In this document: positions 2,911-54,863 of the stretch, one piece after another
How positions within the stretch are numbered: the stretch's first letter is position 1
Layout: each line of letters begins with the position of its first letter
Source of the DNA: Bdellovibrio bacteriovorus W
GTDB taxonomy: Bacteria > Bdellovibrionota > Bdellovibrionia > Bdellovibrionales > Bdellovibrionaceae
Reading direction: 5' to 3'
Assembly: GCA_000525675.1 (NCBI GenBank)
Contig: CP002190.1
Coordinates: forward strand, 2,418,001-2,482,000
DNA length: 64,000 bases
Notes under the pieces: generated by a model
The model's input: the letters and a program-made list of their open reading frames with translations, nothing else
Told to the model about the DNA's origin: nothing
The model's database searches: none
Program-made: the position numbers and the translations under genes

Positions 2911-3654
2911 TTAGGAATCTAAAATTGACGTACTTTCAGAGAGTCCCCATGATTTCAAAATTTCTTTTTCATCACTTGAAGACGTTGCTTTTTTAAACTT
3001 CGCACCAGACTGCCCACTCACTCTTTTTTGACAAGATGGCCAATCCCTGTGGCGATAGACGATACCACCCAAGTTACTTAAATAACTAAAAGCGACCTTT
3101 TTTTCTCCAGGAGCCTTCATGTCTGGCAAAGATGTATCCTTCGGTAGCTCCATCAAATTCACAGAGTAAGTAGAATAGGGCCCACGATACAAATTTATCG
3201 ATTCTCTTTTTGAATATGCCACAGCGATGCGATCGCAGCGTTCATTCCCTGGAGTTCCAATGTGTCCACGCGTGTAGTGCCACTCAATTTTAGCCGTGGC
3301 AGGACGCTTTTGAACCAATTCATTCAGTCTTTGCCAAAGATCTTGATTCAAAACGGGTTGACCTTCCGCGGTCTTCCAACCTCGGCGCATCCATCCCCAT
3401 ACCCACTGTGTAATTCCACGAATAAGATAAGTAGAGTCTGTGTAAAAGCGCACGGGAAGAGCTTGATCTTGAATAAACTCTAAAGCGCGAATTGCTGCTA
3501 ACATCTCCATTCGATTATTTGTTGTACTTGGATCAAATCCTCCAAGCTCTTGAACAGTATCATCTGGAAAAAGAAGAACAGATCCCCAGCCTCCAGGGCC
3601 TGGGTTTCCAGAACAAGCACCATCAGAAAAAATCAAAAAATAATCTCGCGACAT
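2911..3654 (-). CDS. rnhA: ribonuclease HI with a C-terminal hybrid-binding domain
   Basis: Residues 1-150 form a complete RNase HI: the first Asp in FSDGACSGNPGPGGWG, Glu in NNRMEML, Asp in YTDSTYL and the final Asp in GNERCDRIA, plus the His of RGHIGTPGNE. It cleaves RNA in RNA/DNA hybrids. After a linker of about 35 residues, residues 186-236 match the RNase H hybrid-binding domain (RHBD, the caulimovirus viroplasmin fold): aromatic strand, GGIVY, then W-x-x-C-x-x-x-V with G-A-K-F-K-K. In eukaryotic RNase H1 and in many bacteria this domain is N-terminal, so here the order is reversed. The ATG at 3654 is preferred over an upstream TTG because AGAGG lies upstream of it. Confidence 0.92.
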   Translation of the reverse strand: MSRDYFLIFSDGACSGNPGPGGWGSVLLFPDDTVQELGGFDPSTTNNRMEMLAAIRALEFIQDQALPVRFYTDSTYLIRGITQWVWGWMRRGWKTAEGQPVLNQDLWQRLNELVQKRPATAKIEWHYTRGHIGTPGNERCDRIAVAYSKRESINLYRGPYSTYSVNLMELPKDTSLPDMKAPGEKKVAFSYLSNLGGIVYRHRDWPSCQKRVSGQSGAKFKKATSSSDEKEILKSWGLSESTSILDS

Positions 3655-3761
3655 TAATATCAACCTCTATAAAGTTCTTACCAAGAAAAGCCATTCTTTG
3701 TCTCGTGTTTAATGTTTTGACAGCCCAGCATCATTCAAAGCGCCTTCAAGTCCAAGCAGGC

Positions 3762-3777
3762 TGGCACTGAGAGTGCA
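3762..3777 (+). promoter_or_regulatory. sigma-54 (-24/-12) promoter
   Basis: TGGCACTGAGAGTGCA has the GG and GC doublets exactly ten bases apart edge to edge, as in the RpoN consensus TGGCAC-N5-TTGCA; only one base of the -12 box differs. A start of transcription near 3788 would give a very short leader, with AAGGAG at 3790-3795 and the ATG at 3801. The identical 16 bases recur at 4977. Confidence 0.75.
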
Positions 3778-3800
3778 GTTTTATGACTTAAGGAGTAAAC

Positions 3801-4661
3801 ATGACCTTTAAGCTCAAGCCCTTTCTGGGCATTTTCCTATTATCTGTTTGTTCGAGCACACCTGCTTGGGCGAACAACAATAATAATGCAACGGTAACCT
3901 CTGCTGTTGTCATGCAAGCTCCTAAGAAAGAATCCCGTATATGGAGTGGATTCTTCAACATGAGTCGATCTATGAACGCCATCGATCACGAAGACGGCAA
4001 CCGCCTTGATGGCATGGACTATATGGCTCGTTTGAACTTAAGAATTAATAAAGACTATGCGATTCGCGCTCAAGGTGGTTATTCGCAAGACCTCAAAGAC
4101 TCTCAAAATAATGATTTCTCCGACACCTCTGTCAGTTTCGTTCGCAGCGCTATGCCTGTTGGAAAAACCTTCCTGATGAATTACCGTATCAACTCGGGAC
4201 TGCCAACATCAAAGGACTCCCGCATTCGCCAAAACCTTATGGGATCACTTTCTGGAGCGGTCTCCTTCATTGTAAATCCAAAAAGATTGCAACCCGGAGT
4301 CGATATATCAGCTTCTCTTTCTGTGGGAAGAAACTTTCATCAATATGAGACGGCGTTAGATGGCAGAGTGAATACAGAATGGTCTTCATCCCAAGCTCTT
4401 TCTTTGGGGTATAACTTCAGCTTCGGCCTTTCATTGACTGCTGATTTCTCACATCGAAACACTTGGTCCTACCAAAACGTTATGAGAGATAGTTTTGCCC
4501 TCAGCCAAGAAATTGGCTATCAAATGAATTCTTCTATCGCCATCGCCGCTGGCCATAGCAATAGTGGTTCTACGCTAAAACCTAATGGGCAAGATACGAA
4601 TGTTCAGTTCTTTGATGACAATAGTTCGATTGTGTATGGTTCTTTAACCTATATATTCTAA
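3801..4661 (+). CDS. outer-membrane beta-barrel protein, unknown
   Basis: A 286-residue protein with a clear signal peptide (basic start, hydrophobic core, cleavage after about PAWA, residue 25). The remainder alternates polar and hydrophobic residues in short strands (for example YAIRAQGGYSQDL, LSLGYNFSFGLSLTADFSH) and ends in YGSLTYIF with a terminal Phe, the hallmark of a BamA-recognised barrel. It probably has about 12 strands. No family could be named. AAGGAG sits five bases before the start and a sigma-54 promoter just upstream, so expression should depend on RpoN and an activator. A strong hairpin follows the stop. Confidence 0.82.
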   Translation: MTFKLKPFLGIFLLSVCSSTPAWANNNNNATVTSAVVMQAPKKESRIWSGFFNMSRSMNAIDHEDGNRLDGMDYMARLNLRINKDYAIRAQGGYSQDLKDSQNNDFSDTSVSFVRSAMPVGKTFLMNYRINSGLPTSKDSRIRQNLMGSLSGAVSFIVNPKRLQPGVDISASLSVGRNFHQYETALDGRVNTEWSSSQALSLGYNFSFGLSLTADFSHRNTWSYQNVMRDSFALSQEIGYQMNSSIAIAAGHSNSGSTLKPNGQDTNVQFFDDNSSIVYGSLTYIF

Positions 4662-4688
4662 GCTCTGCATATTTTTAGGATTCTTTAA

Positions 4689-4720
4689 AAAGCAAACTAC
4701 TCTAGCGAGTAGTTTGCTTT
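4689..4720 (+). terminator. strong hairpin terminator
   Basis: A perfect 14-base-pair stem (4689-4702 with 4707-4720) with a four-base loop lies 27 bases after the barrel gene. Only three T residues end the stem, so it may also protect the mRNA 3' end. Confidence 0.75.
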
Positions 4721-4909
4721 ACCTATTTGTGCTGATTCATGCCATTCCCTCGCGTCGGAAATATCCACTGCACCCTTTTAAAAACATCCAACTCGCTGAT
4801 CGGAAAAATATCCCCTATTAACATGCTCCTCGTTGTCTCACTTTGACTCTCCGAAAAAGTTTGCAAGCTACCAAACTTATTAGAATTTTTAGAAATGCGC
4901 GAATTGTCC

Positions 4910-4935
4910 CCTGTCAGGATTCTAGACAGGTTTTT
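4910..4935 (+). terminator. isolated hairpin with T-run in a gene-free stretch
   Basis: The stretch 4721-4976 has no supported gene. Within it CCTGTC (4910-4915) pairs with GACAGG (4925-4930), followed by five T residues. It could be a weak terminator of a short untranslated transcript; no convincing promoter was found for one. Confidence 0.35.
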
Positions 4936-4976
4936 CGCGTGTAATGCAATAAGTTCACTTTAGCCAAATCCGCTTG

Positions 4977-4992
4977 TGGCACTGAGAGTGCA
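4977..4992 (+). promoter_or_regulatory. sigma-54 (-24/-12) promoter, second copy
   Basis: The same 16 bases as at 3762-3777, TGGCACTGAGAGTGCA, on the same strand, 90 bases before the start of the giant metalloprotease gene. Flanking bases differ, so it is a conserved site and not a recent duplication of the whole region. Confidence 0.75.
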
Positions 4993-5081
4993 ATTAAAGA
5001 CCTTATGGAGAGTGTCGCCTCTTAAAGCCTCGTATATTTCATATGAGATTTAGGAAGTGACAATAAAGGATGGGAGAGAAA

Positions 5082-8000
5082 ATGAACAAGTCTAACTACG
5101 CAAAGGCAGTTTCTTCACTAGTAGCCTTAGCTCTGTTTGCAACGGGTTGTACAAAAACTCGTGAGGCGTCTTTATCTGAAGACGCTCAGGAAACAAGCTT
5201 TGCTATTTCTGAAATTGATACGCTGTCGGCGCAACAACCTCAGTTGAAAATCACGACTGACTCTGAGCTGCTAGCTCTAGGCTTCGGTGAAGCTTCAAAA
5301 GCAACGGCTGAAAAAGGTAAAGTTGTTGTATCACGTGCTGACGTGCCAAAAAGACTTCAGTTCATGTTCAAAAATCTTCAAATCACTGGTCAAGCGGGTC
5401 ACTCCTACCCAATTGCACTTTCAGTAGATAGACAACACGTTACAGCTTATAAAGTTGTTTCTGATGCTTCTGAATTAACCATCCTTGAGAAGCATCTTGC
5501 ACAAGTAAAAGAAGAAGTTGTTTTACAAAAGCAACTTCAAAAGACAGCTGACATCACTAAAGCAAAAAGTCTTATGCAACAGTTAAGATCTGCTAAAACT
5601 CTGACTGCAAATGCTTTAACTAAAAAAGATCAGCAAATCTTTGTTCCTATCTTTAAATATCCAGTTCAATCCTACGGTGTTCTTCAACGCGCTAAAAATG
5701 AACTTAAAGAAGAGACTTCAAACCTACGTTTAAAAGGCACTAACTGGACGGAAGCTACTCATATCACTTTAAGCATTAAATCAGAGCACAGAGTTCTTGT
5801 AGGACTTGAGCCAGCTTCAATTGGCGATATGGACAGAACTTTTGTGATGGATCGTATCAACAATAAAATCATGACTGTTGGTACTTTAAAAAATGAATTC
5901 CAAATCCCAGTGGCATTGAATTCAGATGCACGCGTATTAACACTTCTTGATGTTGATGCTATGCACGTCTTTGAGATTACACAAATTGAAAAAGCAGGTC
6001 TTACTGAGTCTCAAAAACAGCAATTGCTATCTGCTTCTAATAAAACAAACGTACGCCATTGCTCTGACGACATCAAAAATGCTCTTCCTAAAGAAGCTCA
6101 AGCAAACTGTATCCTAGTATTGCGCTTTGATGTTCCTGTGAACTACGTAAAACCACAACTTGCTAACATTGACGACGAAGGCAACCAACAAGCACGTATC
6201 AACTTTGAGCAGGTAAATGCGGGTCAAAGCGTTGGTCTTGTACAAATCGCTAAAAACATTGAACCTAAGAAAATTGAGCACAATAACAACCTTGATCCAC
6301 GCAGCACCATCCGTATTGCTGACATCAAGAACAAAGAATTCTTCTTCAAACGTACTCTTGAAGACGCTCCAGTAAACACGGTTTTTCCTCCAGGACTAGC
6401 TGGCGACCTAACGATTGTAAGATTCGAAATCCAAGAAAAACGCATCGTTGTTCGCAAAGCAGACAAACTTATTAACTACAAATCTGGTAACAACGACGTT
6501 GACGTTGAAGAATTGATGTCAATCGGTGCCAAATACTTAAAATTTGACTCTAAAAACAGTGCTGGTGCTGACTACTCTATGGCTCGCCTTGTTCCTGCTA
6601 CACACGTAGATGCTGAATACGTTGAGCTTGACTGGGGCCACAACGCTCTAGCTTCTGATGGTTCACCATTTGACGCTCTATACAGTGATTGCTTTAAATC
6701 CGTCGCTGATAAAACTGTTACTGATACAGACTATAACTTAGCTCAAGGATCTCTAAACTTCACATTGAACTACTCAGTAGGTCTTTCTCGCTACTGCATC
6801 GCAGACGAAATCAGATCTTCTGATAGCTATAACGACGTTGCAAAAAGACAAACCACAGCTCGCATCAAAGAGCGTATCTCTTTCCTAGCGAACGATGGAA
6901 AAACAAACACGTCATTCGTAGAACAAGTGCCTTTCAGAGTTCAAAACGAACTTGGTTACGGTGTATGGACTGTCGCTCAAATGAACCCAAGCGAAGCTGG
7001 TTTAATGGGCCGTGCGGGTCAAGAAAAAAACTTCCAAGTAGTTCACGACTTCAGAAACGGAAAAACTCTTAACTATACAGTGACAGGTCTTGAACCATCT
7101 GTACAAATCCCAGCTGATATCCGCGAGCTTTACATTGAAACTACTAAAGAAGTTGTCGATGCTTGGGACTTTGCTTACCGCCAAGCTTTCAAAGGCACTA
7201 AACTAGCAAGAGAAGGTCGCTATGTAACTGTTCAGTTTGCTGACGACAACACAATCAAAGCTAAAGTCGGTGATCTTAATAAGAATATCATCCACTACGA
7301 AAACAAATTTAACGGAAATCACGGTATCCTAGGTGTATCTCAAGTTGGTTACAATCCACGCTCTGGAATCGTAGTCGCAGACTCTATGGTTGTTTACGCT
7401 GGTAACCTACAACACTTTGTTGCTAGCTACCAACGCAGCCTAAAAAATGCGGCTCAATACCAAGCGATGAAAGAACAGTTTAAAAAGGATGCTTTTGAGA
7501 AACTTACAGCTCAACAAGCGGCTGATGCGAAAGCGCAAAAATCTGTAAAAGCAGACGCCAATCCTCAGGAAAAAGCTGAGGCAGCTGCCAACTTCACTCG
7601 TCAACTTGCTAAGATGAGCCAAGGAATGAAAGCTTCTAAGGGAGCATTCATCCAAGCTAAAAATCTTAAGATTTCTGCAATGGACGTTAAAGCGGCAGCT
7701 ACTCAAATGAAGAGAACAAATGCTAAAAACTTTGCTTACTCTTCTCCAACAACTGAGCACGGCTGGATTGACAAGGTTCTAAAGCAACTTAACGACAATA
7801 AATCAATGGATGAGATGGAGTTAGAGGGCATCGTAGCTAAAGAGATGCTTGCTGCTAAAGGTAGAAAAATGTCTGCTGCAGACCGTGCATCTCTTGAAAA
7901 CACTGCAAGAATGGGAGAGCTTCGCGCAAAGCTAAACTCTCAGTTTAAAACTCGTCCAGGTTGTATGTTGACTGCTAGAAATCCAATCTCTACGGGCTTT

Positions 8001-9965
8001 GCGAACATGACTTTCAAAGAAGCATTAAAAGAAGAGCTATTCTTTGACCTTGCGCACGAGATGGGTCACTCTCAAGGTCTTACACATAACTTTGTAGGGT
8101 CTTTTGATAAAGCTAACTTCAATAACGAAGATGGTTCTGCATCTAAACGTAACTACTCTTCAATCATGGATTACATCGAACCAGGTAAATTCAAATGGGA
8201 TGGTATCGGATCTTACGACATCCATGCACTACGTGCATCTCACCTTGGGCTGTTTGAACTTAGCACCGAGGCAGCAAAGCAATTAGCTAATGATCCAAGA
8301 GTGGTAAATGGTAAGTTCCTTACTTACAAGACAATTAAAGAAGACGTGATGAAGAATAACGTTCAAACATTCAACAAACGTCGTATCCAAGGTCTATTGA
8401 AGGAGTACAAATACTGCACAGACATTCACGTAGGTTATGAACCAAATTGTCAACGCTTTGACTACGGTACGACTCCAGGTGAAATCGTAGACAGCTTGAT
8501 CCAAGATTACGAAGATGGTTACGCTAATAACTACCATGCTTGGGATCGTAATAACTTTGGTGTCAGACAAGCTAGCGGTGCTGTCAGTGGTTCTATTAGA
8601 TCAATGTTCCAAATGCGCCAATTCTTAGACGAGCTGTTCTACAACATGGTTCTTGATCCTGAAAATCAAGAAGCTGTTAGCTCTAACTTCGAAGCAGCAT
8701 TGAAAGCATACTTGTTCTACGTACAGTTAATTCAAACACCGGATGCTCACACTTCATTCCTTGATAAGAATCGTTTTGTGGCAGTTCCTTTTCAGTACAA
8801 AGAAACAAACGCTGAAGGCAAAGAAACGGGAAGAACTCTAACTGATATCGAAGTTGTTGAAAGACGTGCCGTATCTGATCTAGCGATTCGCGAAGACAGA
8901 ATTGACACCGTTGGTATCGAGTATGACAAAGTGATGGCATTAAACTTCTTAACTATGAAGGGTTTCCCTGAGTACAAATACTGGGCTAACAACATCCAGT
9001 TCTCATTCTTAGATTTTGAAAAATACGCTCTTGGAATGAAAACTGAAAACAGTTTGTTCGTAAATCTAGTAACGGGAATGATTTTGGATGATATCCAACC
9101 AAGCTTCTCTAATGACAAAGTCACGCTTGCTCCACTTCAAGGTGAAAAAGCGACAGTGACTGCGGCAATGAGATCTTACGCCGGTATCTACTCAATCCTT
9201 AATCTTGAAGCTTCAACACTTCGTGATAAGGACAACTTTGCCACGCTATTCAAAGTTGGTAGCAGCTTAGGTAAAGCTCCACAAGATCGCCTTGCTTTAA
9301 GTCAACTGGGTGTATCTGATACATCTGCGACACGTCTTTCATTCTGGGCTGTAGACAATGCAGTGGCATCAAACAGCGTTCTTCAGATTGCGAACACGAA
9401 AAACTTCTTTATCAAAAATACAGAAGTGATTCAGGCTCCAATCGAAAAGCTAGTTGCTGAGCAGGTGATCGGTCTTCTAAGTGAAAAAGGAAATGCCGAA
9501 AAAATCGCAGCCGCTAAAGCTGAGTTAGTTGCAAAACTAAATGAACTAAACTCAACTGGTATGATCGCATCTAAAGCAATGGTTCAAGCTAATCCACAAC
9601 TTTCAGTTGAGGGACAAGCAACAATCATCGAACAGTTCAACCAACAAGTGATCGAAATGATCCTTGCAGCGATGACTGGTCAAGATGTAAGTGAACATGC
9701 AGGAGAGTTAAAAGCTCAAGCTGATATGATGGCTGAAGCGCTTCCATTACTTGCAGTAGGACAAGTTTCTCTAAAATCAGGTCTTACTAAAGTTGGTCAG
9801 CAGCTTTCAAAAACAAAAGGTCTTGAGGCACTTAAAGACATGGGCGACATCGCTAGACAACTAGTAGATGGATCTCAACTTGAGGTTTCATACGGAATCA
9901 TCATGAAGAACGTTGAGTTCTTAAACATGCTGACTCTTATGACGAACCCAGAACTAAACAGATAA
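5082..9965 (+). CDS. giant metzincin zinc metalloprotease lipoprotein
   Basis: A 1627-residue lipoprotein. The signal peptide ends in the lipobox ATGC, anchoring the protein to a membrane. The zinc site is HEMGHSQGLTH (first His about residue 992; HExxHxxGxxH), followed about 30 residues later by the Met-turn SIMDY (Met about 1029), so it is a metzincin related to the zinc-dependent metalloproteases with DUF5117/DUF4953-type domains. About 900 residues precede the protease core, and a long Ala/Gln/Lys-rich helical tail follows. The ATG at 5082 is preferred to the one at 5070 because GGGAGAG lies just before it. A role in degrading prey or its own envelope proteins is plausible but not shown. 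The upstream sigma-54 site is shared with the barrel gene at 3801. Confidence 0.88.
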   Translation: MNKSNYAKAVSSLVALALFATGCTKTREASLSEDAQETSFAISEIDTLSAQQPQLKITTDSELLALGFGEASKATAEKGKVVVSRADVPKRLQFMFKNLQITGQAGHSYPIALSVDRQHVTAYKVVSDASELTILEKHLAQVKEEVVLQKQLQKTADITKAKSLMQQLRSAKTLTANALTKKDQQIFVPIFKYPVQSYGVLQRAKNELKEETSNLRLKGTNWTEATHITLSIKSEHRVLVGLEPASIGDMDRTFVMDRINNKIMTVGTLKNEFQIPVALNSDARVLTLLDVDAMHVFEITQIEKAGLTESQKQQLLSASNKTNVRHCSDDIKNALPKEAQANCILVLRFDVPVNYVKPQLANIDDEGNQQARINFEQVNAGQSVGLVQIAKNIEPKKIEHNNNLDPRSTIRIADIKNKEFFFKRTLEDAPVNTVFPPGLAGDLTIVRFEIQEKRIVVRKADKLINYKSGNNDVDVEELMSIGAKYLKFDSKNSAGADYSMARLVPATHVDAEYVELDWGHNALASDGSPFDALYSDCFKSVADKTVTDTDYNLAQGSLNFTLNYSVGLSRYCIADEIRSSDSYNDVAKRQTTARIKERISFLANDGKTNTSFVEQVPFRVQNELGYGVWTVAQMNPSEAGLMGRAGQEKNFQVVHDFRNGKTLNYTVTGLEPSVQIPADIRELYIETTKEVVDAWDFAYRQAFKGTKLAREGRYVTVQFADDNTIKAKVGDLNKNIIHYENKFNGNHGILGVSQVGYNPRSGIVVADSMVVYAGNLQHFVASYQRSLKNAAQYQAMKEQFKKDAFEKLTAQQAADAKAQKSVKADANPQEKAEAAANFTRQLAKMSQGMKASKGAFIQAKNLKISAMDVKAAATQMKRTNAKNFAYSSPTTEHGWIDKVLKQLNDNKSMDEMELEGIVAKEMLAAKGRKMSAADRASLENTARMGELRAKLNSQFKTRPGCMLTARNPISTGFANMTFKEALKEELFFDLAHEMGHSQGLTHNFVGSFDKANFNNEDGSASKRNYSSIMDYIEPGKFKWDGIGSYDIHALRASHLGLFELSTEAAKQLANDPRVVNGKFLTYKTIKEDVMKNNVQTFNKRRIQGLLKEYKYCTDIHVGYEPNCQRFDYGTTPGEIVDSLIQDYEDGYANNYHAWDRNNFGVRQASGAVSGSIRSMFQMRQFLDELFYNMVLDPENQEAVSSNFEAALKAYLFYVQLIQTPDAHTSFLDKNRFVAVPFQYKETNAEGKETGRTLTDIEVVERRAVSDLAIREDRIDTVGIEYDKVMALNFLTMKGFPEYKYWANNIQFSFLDFEKYALGMKTENSLFVNLVTGMILDDIQPSFSNDKVTLAPLQGEKATVTAAMRSYAGIYSILNLEASTLRDKDNFATLFKVGSSLGKAPQDRLALSQLGVSDTSATRLSFWAVDNAVASNSVLQIANTKNFFIKNTEVIQAPIEKLVAEQVIGLLSEKGNAEKIAAAKAELVAKLNELNSTGMIASKAMVQANPQLSVEGQATIIEQFNQQVIEMILAAMTGQDVSEHAGELKAQADMMAEALPLLAVGQVSLKSGLTKVGQQLSKTKGLEALKDMGDIARQLVDGSQLEVSYGIIMKNVEFLNMLTLMTNPELNR

Positions 9966-54634: not shown

Positions 54635-54863
54635 AGTCATCTCCGTTTCGACATTTATTTCTTCTTTAAACAATGAACCCGAAGAGATTTATCAATGGAA
54701 ACGGACTTTTTAAACACTTTCAGGAAAAAATCAAATCAACCCTTACTTATTAACAGCCTTGTCTAAACTTTATACACTCTTGACTCTCAGATTTATTGAA
54801 AATCCGCAATACTTCAGGCAATTCCACAGCTTTAAAGGGGCTCGCTCCTTAGGGCCTCAAGAA

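Follow-up and report, generated by a model that had tools for sequence, protein, structure and literature searches.

In the window, the stretch of 64,000 nt that was analysed as a whole, a gene for an outer-membrane beta-barrel and a gene for a giant exported metalloprotease are each preceded by the same 16 bases, TGGCACTGAGAGTGCA, at 3762-3777 and 4977-4992 of the + strand, and farther upstream each has an inverted repeat that is a candidate activator site. The explanation that we consider likely combines sigma-54, one shared activator, a regulon at the level of the genus and a protease promoter that was copied. RNA polymerase with sigma-54 (RpoN) would transcribe both genes from the two 16-base promoters, and one enhancer-binding protein would, as a dimer, bind repeats of the type CCTGTC-N9-GACAGG and activate both genes. 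Lying 37 and 46 bp before the -24 element, the repeats would face the same side of the helix. Besides the barrel and the protease, this regulon would take in further exported proteins across the genus. Other lineages would have a barrel-protease operon with one sigma-54 promoter in front of it; within the genus Bdellovibrio, the genes would have become separated, with the protease promoter being an old copy of the barrel control region.

Two sigma-54-type promoters and the genes behind them

As the preliminary description had claimed, an identical 16-mer lies upstream of two genes for exported proteins. The copies form a unique pair in the genome. A search of the genome from which the window was taken (the own genome; 3,006,992 bases in a single contig, of which the window covers 2,418,001-2,482,000), which that description had proposed, returned these two exact copies, both at promoters, and one copy with two mismatches, with none for the reversed control. 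The other 23 genomes of the genus contain no exact copy and one with a single mismatch. No third match was found in the window with up to three mismatches, a loose setting at which 8 of 100 shuffles reached at least two matches. Both sites have the GG-N10-GC arrangement canonical for sigma-54, so the spacing had been described correctly, in a context resembling TGGCAC-N5-TTGC with one mismatch to TTGC (GTGC). At the barrel promoter, the -24 GG is at 3763-3764 and the -12 GC at 3775-3776; the 16-mer begins 39 bp before the ATG at 3801, and the transcript is predicted to start near 3787. At the protease promoter, these elements are at 4978-4979 and 4990-4991, the distance to the ATG at 5082 is 105 bp, and the predicted start lies near 5002. 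No sigma-70 promoters were found at either 16-mer site, and the FliA motif TTAAG-N16-CCGATA is absent from both promoters, its nearest match being at 4038, within the barrel gene. The looser pattern TGGCAC-N6-YGCW occurs at 29 places in the own genome, versus 13 for the reversed control, so about half of these sites may be real; the genes behind two of the others (L087 and L107) are presumably flagellar.

The identification of the two sites as sigma-54 promoters, also made in the earlier description, is strengthened by their conservation and by the presence of rpoN. The RpoN DNA-binding domain was found in 23 of the 24 genomes of the genus (own genome match, 2.3e-65), the single miss being G017, a genome that is 88% complete. 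Barrel relatives are present in all 24 genomes (25 rows). Every one of the 19 rows with at least 37% identity has TGGCA(C/T) and a correctly spaced GC, 40-75 bp before the start; the nineteenth, from G022, was read via the named record L130 as TGGCATTCTTTTCGCT, the protease promoters of L130 and G022 being identical. Likewise, TGGCA(C/T)-N7-GCA is kept 105-133 bp before the start of the protease gene in all 18 genomes where the N-terminus is covered. The six rows at 25-28% identity represent a diverged barrel relative; TGGCCCACCCCTTGCT stands about 115 bp upstream in three, and in the other three there is no site at the cut-off used. A second, diverged pair of barrel and metalloprotease genes (25-28% and ~30-38% identity) is found in G010, G011, G013, G014, G015 and G020 (loci L024-L029, L048-L052 and L057), in some cases with TGGCCCACCCCTTGCT upstream, and G014 carries both pairs.

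In a comparison that reached beyond the genus and comprised 13 loci with a barrel relative, seven loci from outside the genus have a sigma-54-like site 28-85 bp before the barrel gene, even in Pseudobdellovibrio and Halobacteriovorax. The site has the form TGGTAC or TGGTAT in L128, L129, L133, L135 and L136, and TGGCAC in L138 and L140; in these loci the protease gene begins 19-65 bp after the barrel gene, an operon-like layout. L131 has TGGCACGTTCATCGCA 28 bp before the barrel gene. In L132 the candidate site is at most weak, and the protease gene is not found behind the barrel gene. No sigma-54-like site was found in L139, a locus that may begin within the gene. The same conservation bears on the idea that the two sites are not promoters but terminator-like or hairpin-forming RNA elements. 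The terminator scan does list GCACTGAGAGTGC followed by AGTTTTATGA at 3764, but this stem has 5 pairs only and is gone in most orthologues, which retain the -24/-12 letters, and we give this reading next to no chance.

The barrel gene (3801..4661, +) has orthologues and encodes 286 aa with a signal peptide. Its earlier designation as a barrel is borne out by an AlphaFold2 model from 13 sequences, which has 12 strands (mean pLDDT 68) and matches barrels of the FapF/OmpG type. Behind it lies a terminator-like stem-loop with a 14-pair stem (4689..4720, +), from a simple consensus scan in which 2 were found versus 1.0 expected. This stem would end the barrel transcript, and the protease gene would therefore need its own promoter. 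On the other side, the barrel gene is divergent from an RNase HI gene (2911-3663), a neighbour shared with B. bacteriovorus kdesi and Halobacteriovorax (L140).

The metalloprotease gene (5082..9965, +) yields, from the ATG at 5082, the 1627-residue exported protein that had been described. It is a predicted lipoprotein with a lipobox-like N-terminus (LFATGC), and the motif HEMGHSQGLTH, of the form HExxHxxGxxH, is followed later by a Met-turn-like IMDY. The match to Pfam DUF4953 'Met-zincin' scores 25.1 bits, the cut-off being 24.2. Relatives among the named records come from Bdellovibrio, Pseudobdellovibrio and Halobacteriovorax; a contig scan for relatives gave 0 loci with a single-protein query and 17 with an alignment query. 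A hairpin of 50 nt (5013..5062, +) is located in the predicted leader of the protease mRNA (-23.4 kcal/mol, z -2.95, 0/200 shuffles). Two-sided changes occur at 4 of its 14 consensus pairs among 16 sequences, and no Rfam family matched it at gathering thresholds; the hairpin may modulate translation.

An inverted repeat shared by the two promoters and a wider set

The preliminary description had also proposed looking upstream for activator sites. This search revealed a 21-base inverted repeat with the consensus CCTGWYNAANNYTTNGACAGC and the ideal arms CCTGTC-N9-GACAGG. The candidate site of the barrel gene (3704..3724, +), the best-scoring 21-mer, reads TGTT-N9-GACA and ends 37 bp before the -24 element; that of the protease gene (4904..4930, +) consists of a perfect CCTGTC-N9-GACAGG at 4910-4930 with TTGTCC before it, at 46 bp. 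Each of the 36 promoters of barrel or protease genes in the comparison has the repeat upstream, those of 17 other barrels among them, a count that is circular and descriptive since the 21-base profile was trained on those 36 promoters. The gaps from the repeat to TGGCA are 28 (1 promoter), 37-38 (14) and 46-47 (21), with 57 in L130, and at orthologous promoters they differ by about one helical turn. Most loci outside the genus showed no such repeat, and the activator site may thus be a genus-level feature.

A check independent of the profile used the pattern TGTC-N10-ACA-N(25-55)-TGGCAY-N6-YGC, which was found at 35 places in the 24 genomes, versus 2 when reversed. When the repeat was scrambled and the promoter part left unchanged, 9 places were found genus-wide, two of which are strict-pattern places, while a third resembles the promoter of the coiled-coil gene described below. 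With TGAC-N9-GACA in front of the same promoter part there were 12 places, versus 0 reversed, and 11 of the 12 are barrel or protease promoters. In the own genome, the strict pattern occurs twice, before the protease gene and before the coiled-coil gene, the left arm at the barrel having TGTT; a profile search of the own genome returned only the two promoters in its training set. For the 30 of the 35 places that have loci, the gaps are 24 (1), 28-29 (3), 37-39 (13), 46-49 (11) and 52 (2). Taken as 19 pairs of gene family and gap, these are periodic (p 0.009, period 9.5); with the barrel, the protease and hits inside genes removed (12 pairs), p is 0.10. Helical phasing thus appears well supported at the barrel and protease genes and is suggestive for the other targets.

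Elsewhere in the window, a good match to the repeat lies at 54758-54778 (CTTGTCTAAACTTTATACACT, score 18.3), with no sigma-54 site noticed nearby. In the own genome, repeat-like dyads are also found at G000:C1:90640 (L084) and 325796 (L086); they precede, by 85 and 108 bp, sigma-54-like sites that have no close downstream gene on that strand. These two could belong to small RNAs or be due to chance, and were left uncounted.

What follows the repeat and promoter is mostly exported. Five of the 30 strict-pattern places are barrel or protease promoters, three lie inside long open frames (L201, L210 and L214) and one has no frame; 26 of the 29 open frames begin with a signal-peptide-like N-terminus, given here as a raw share. 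For example, the paired elements precede a subtilase (Peptidase_S8, 3.5e-32) in G001, G003, G006 and G007, a papain-like protease (Peptidase_C1_2, 9.1e-14) in G014, and an exported protein of 252-266 aa in G010, G015 and G020; several further targets have no Pfam match. A gene for an exported coiled-coil protein of 402 aa has them, with a gap of 49, in the own genome and in at least four others of the genus (G001, G003, G006 and G019), and its repeat and sigma-54 site in the own genome (L100/L187), which fit the strict pattern, are at G000:C1:2052718-2052801. In B. bacteriovorus kdesi, an exported HAD-like gene, so assigned from motifs as Pfam gave no match, lies between the barrel and the protease (L134:6176-6964). 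It is absent from that position in the own genome, and its relative in G008 lies elsewhere, with a repeat and sigma-54 site of its own (L173). The profile search added further sites before a small exported protein (G022 and G010) and a protease-like gene of 1302 aa (G016).

Promoter and repeat conservation, the classes of gap, the further paired promoters and the exported nature of the products can all be read from the genomes themselves. The paired repeats and promoters look like a regulon that extends over the genus, has exported products and answers to one enhancer-binding protein; a single activator probably turns on a group of secreted proteins. The earlier suggestion that one switch governs both the barrel and the protease is thereby upheld by the conserved promoters, rpoN, the shared upstream repeat and its genus-wide pairing with the promoter. 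We infer from these patterns the use of sigma-54, the role of the repeat as an activator site, the action of one protein at all of the promoters and a timing within the predatory cycle.

A search of the own genome gave 16 rows, made up of ten full enhancer-binding proteins and several weak or incomplete matches. Six of the ten have receiver domains, one has an FHA domain, and for three another N-terminal domain or none was matched. In a neighbourhood search, no full enhancer-binding protein was found adjoining the barrel, protease or regulon loci; the two hits at E<=1e-10 came from L109 and L084, which are loci of other sigma-54-like sites. No convincing repeat was found in the promoters of the ten candidate genes, and neither search connected any of these genes with the repeat. 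With ten such proteins available, the sigma-54 promoters could be real and yet be served by different activators, the repeats being coincidental or bound by a general DNA-binding protein. The barrel repeats do favour left halves of the TGAC or TGTT type, and the protease repeats differ in detail. However, the two genes share the 21-base register and the gap classes, and the pairing of repeat and promoter is enriched genus-wide, which makes separate activators an unlikely alternative to the single one proposed here.

Spacer identity and the origin of the protease promoter

The identity of the two 16-mers extends over the spacer, and the preliminary description had suggested that an extra protein may read it. 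The other genomes speak against this. Only in the own genome are all six spacer bases alike between barrel and protease; the 16 other genomes having both match at 1-4 of 6, and the maximum over 289 cross-genome pairs of barrel and protease spacers, the own genome left out, is 4 of 6. Since the spacer differs in every other species, it can evidently vary freely and does not act as a conserved operator, and we reject the idea of a protein that reads it. What the promoters share instead is the upstream repeat, and the extra protein most likely reads that repeat, ~40-65 bp further upstream. The operator could also be the entire 16-mer, spacer included, with its near-perfect inverted repeat GCACT-GAG-AGTGC binding a dimeric regulator on top of sigma-54 or in place of it. 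This would account for the GCACT-N3-AGTGC symmetry, for the identity of the two copies in the own genome and for GCACTNNNAGTGC being kept in the protease promoters of several relatives. However, the barrel promoters of relatives keep -24/-12 without the symmetry (spacers CGTCCC, CCTCCC and CCGATT), and the half-symmetry is partly a consequence of TGGCAC and TGCA; we therefore regard such an operator as very improbable.

The other suggestion made earlier, that one copy arose from the other, is borne out in part: shared runs of up to 15 nt in some relatives make an old duplication likely, and the flanks in the own genome show no sign of a recent one. In G019, the stretch after the -12 element that is common to both promoters in register is 15 nt long (AGGAGAGTGTCCTAT), and in G017 it is 13 nt. 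This stretch comprises the ribosome-binding site of the barrel gene and in G019 also takes in the start codon's first two letters, yet at the protease gene it sits in the leader, a long way before the real start. What looks like a relic of the barrel ribosome-binding site in the protease leader thus points to an old, copied barrel promoter. In a shared-run test of 12 genomes, six had a run that was reached by at most 1% of 300 shuffles, G018 was borderline (0.07), and nothing was found in G000, G021, G006, G003 and G001. An old duplication of the barrel promoter is likely, and the barrel and the protease were probably once one operon.

A recent event in the own lineage, by gene conversion or by duplication of one promoter, could still explain why the spacers are identical. 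In the own genome, the barrel spacer has 0-2 of 6 bases in common with the barrel spacers of other species and up to 4 of 6 with their protease spacers, and this protease-like character makes it possible that the protease promoter converted the barrel promoter; the older duplication discernible in relatives fits with it. The flanks, however, show no recent copy and do not support a recent duplication: upstream, 28 of 110 bases agree in register, which is no better than chance, and downstream 11 of 24 do. A conversion confined to 16 bases would be unusual, and convergence over six spacer bases is possible. A recent event is thus conceivable, and we lean against it. The old duplication of the barrel promoter is the part of this history that enters our explanation.

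Known regulons and the biology of the predator

Regulons of RpoN and enhancer-binding proteins of the NtrC, NifA and FlrC type have -24/-12 promoters, an upstream inverted-repeat site, unlinked targets and a spacing set by the helix face. The set described here resembles them in its GG-N10-GC promoters, upstream inverted repeat, several unlinked targets and what may be a helix-face constraint, and differs in that its targets are the exported proteins of a predator. Known activator boxes include TGCACC-N5-GGTGCA for NtrC and TGT-N10-ACA for NifA, and CCTGTC-N9-GACAGG matches neither of them. A NifA-type site was rejected because eleven bases separate TGT and ACA here (TGTC-N9-GACA), as against ten.

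In the same bacterial group, the attack-phase regulon of FliA (sigma-28) in B. bacteriovorus HD100 is described as including surface proteins and proteases (PMC3627812), and is thus another case of an alternative sigma factor running such genes; its motif, TTAAG-N16-CCGATA, is at neither promoter here. The available text of that study assigns two thirds of the attack-phase promoters to FliA, describes the remaining third as lacking a strong motif, and gives no mapping of growth-phase promoters (PMC3627812). HD100 has an annotated RpoN-like sigma factor, Bd0843 (PMC3464611; PMC11209729), the type of sigma factor that these promoters need, and the available part of one source names no target for it (PMC3464611). 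Bd3137, a zinc-metalloprotease homologue, appears in a list of proteins with a possible link to prey entry (PMC12546842); it may or may not correspond to the protease of the window, and carries no weight in the argument. Among the papers listed in searches of the Bdellovibrio literature for sigma-54, RpoN, NtrC and enhancer-binding proteins, no title or abstract opening describes a sigma-54 regulon for this group. Mechanistically this is a known kind of control; what appears to be new, within the literature searched, is the regulon and its site.

The control of prey-attack and prey-digestion proteins in predatory bacteria is largely unmapped beyond FliA. A dedicated sigma-54 programme under one enhancer-binding protein might, via CCTGTC-N9-GACAGG, make the exported proteins of prey contact and prey digestion (the barrel, the giant metalloprotease, the subtilase, the papain-like protease, the exported HAD-like protein and the coiled-coil protein), apart from the attack-phase programme of FliA, and the core barrel-protease operon would then date to the common ancestor with Halobacteriovorax. 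We offer this broader reading tentatively, at a little short of even chances. The rule of repeat, gap and -24/-12 element predicts which exported proteins would be co-regulated, and this can be tested directly in B. bacteriovorus.
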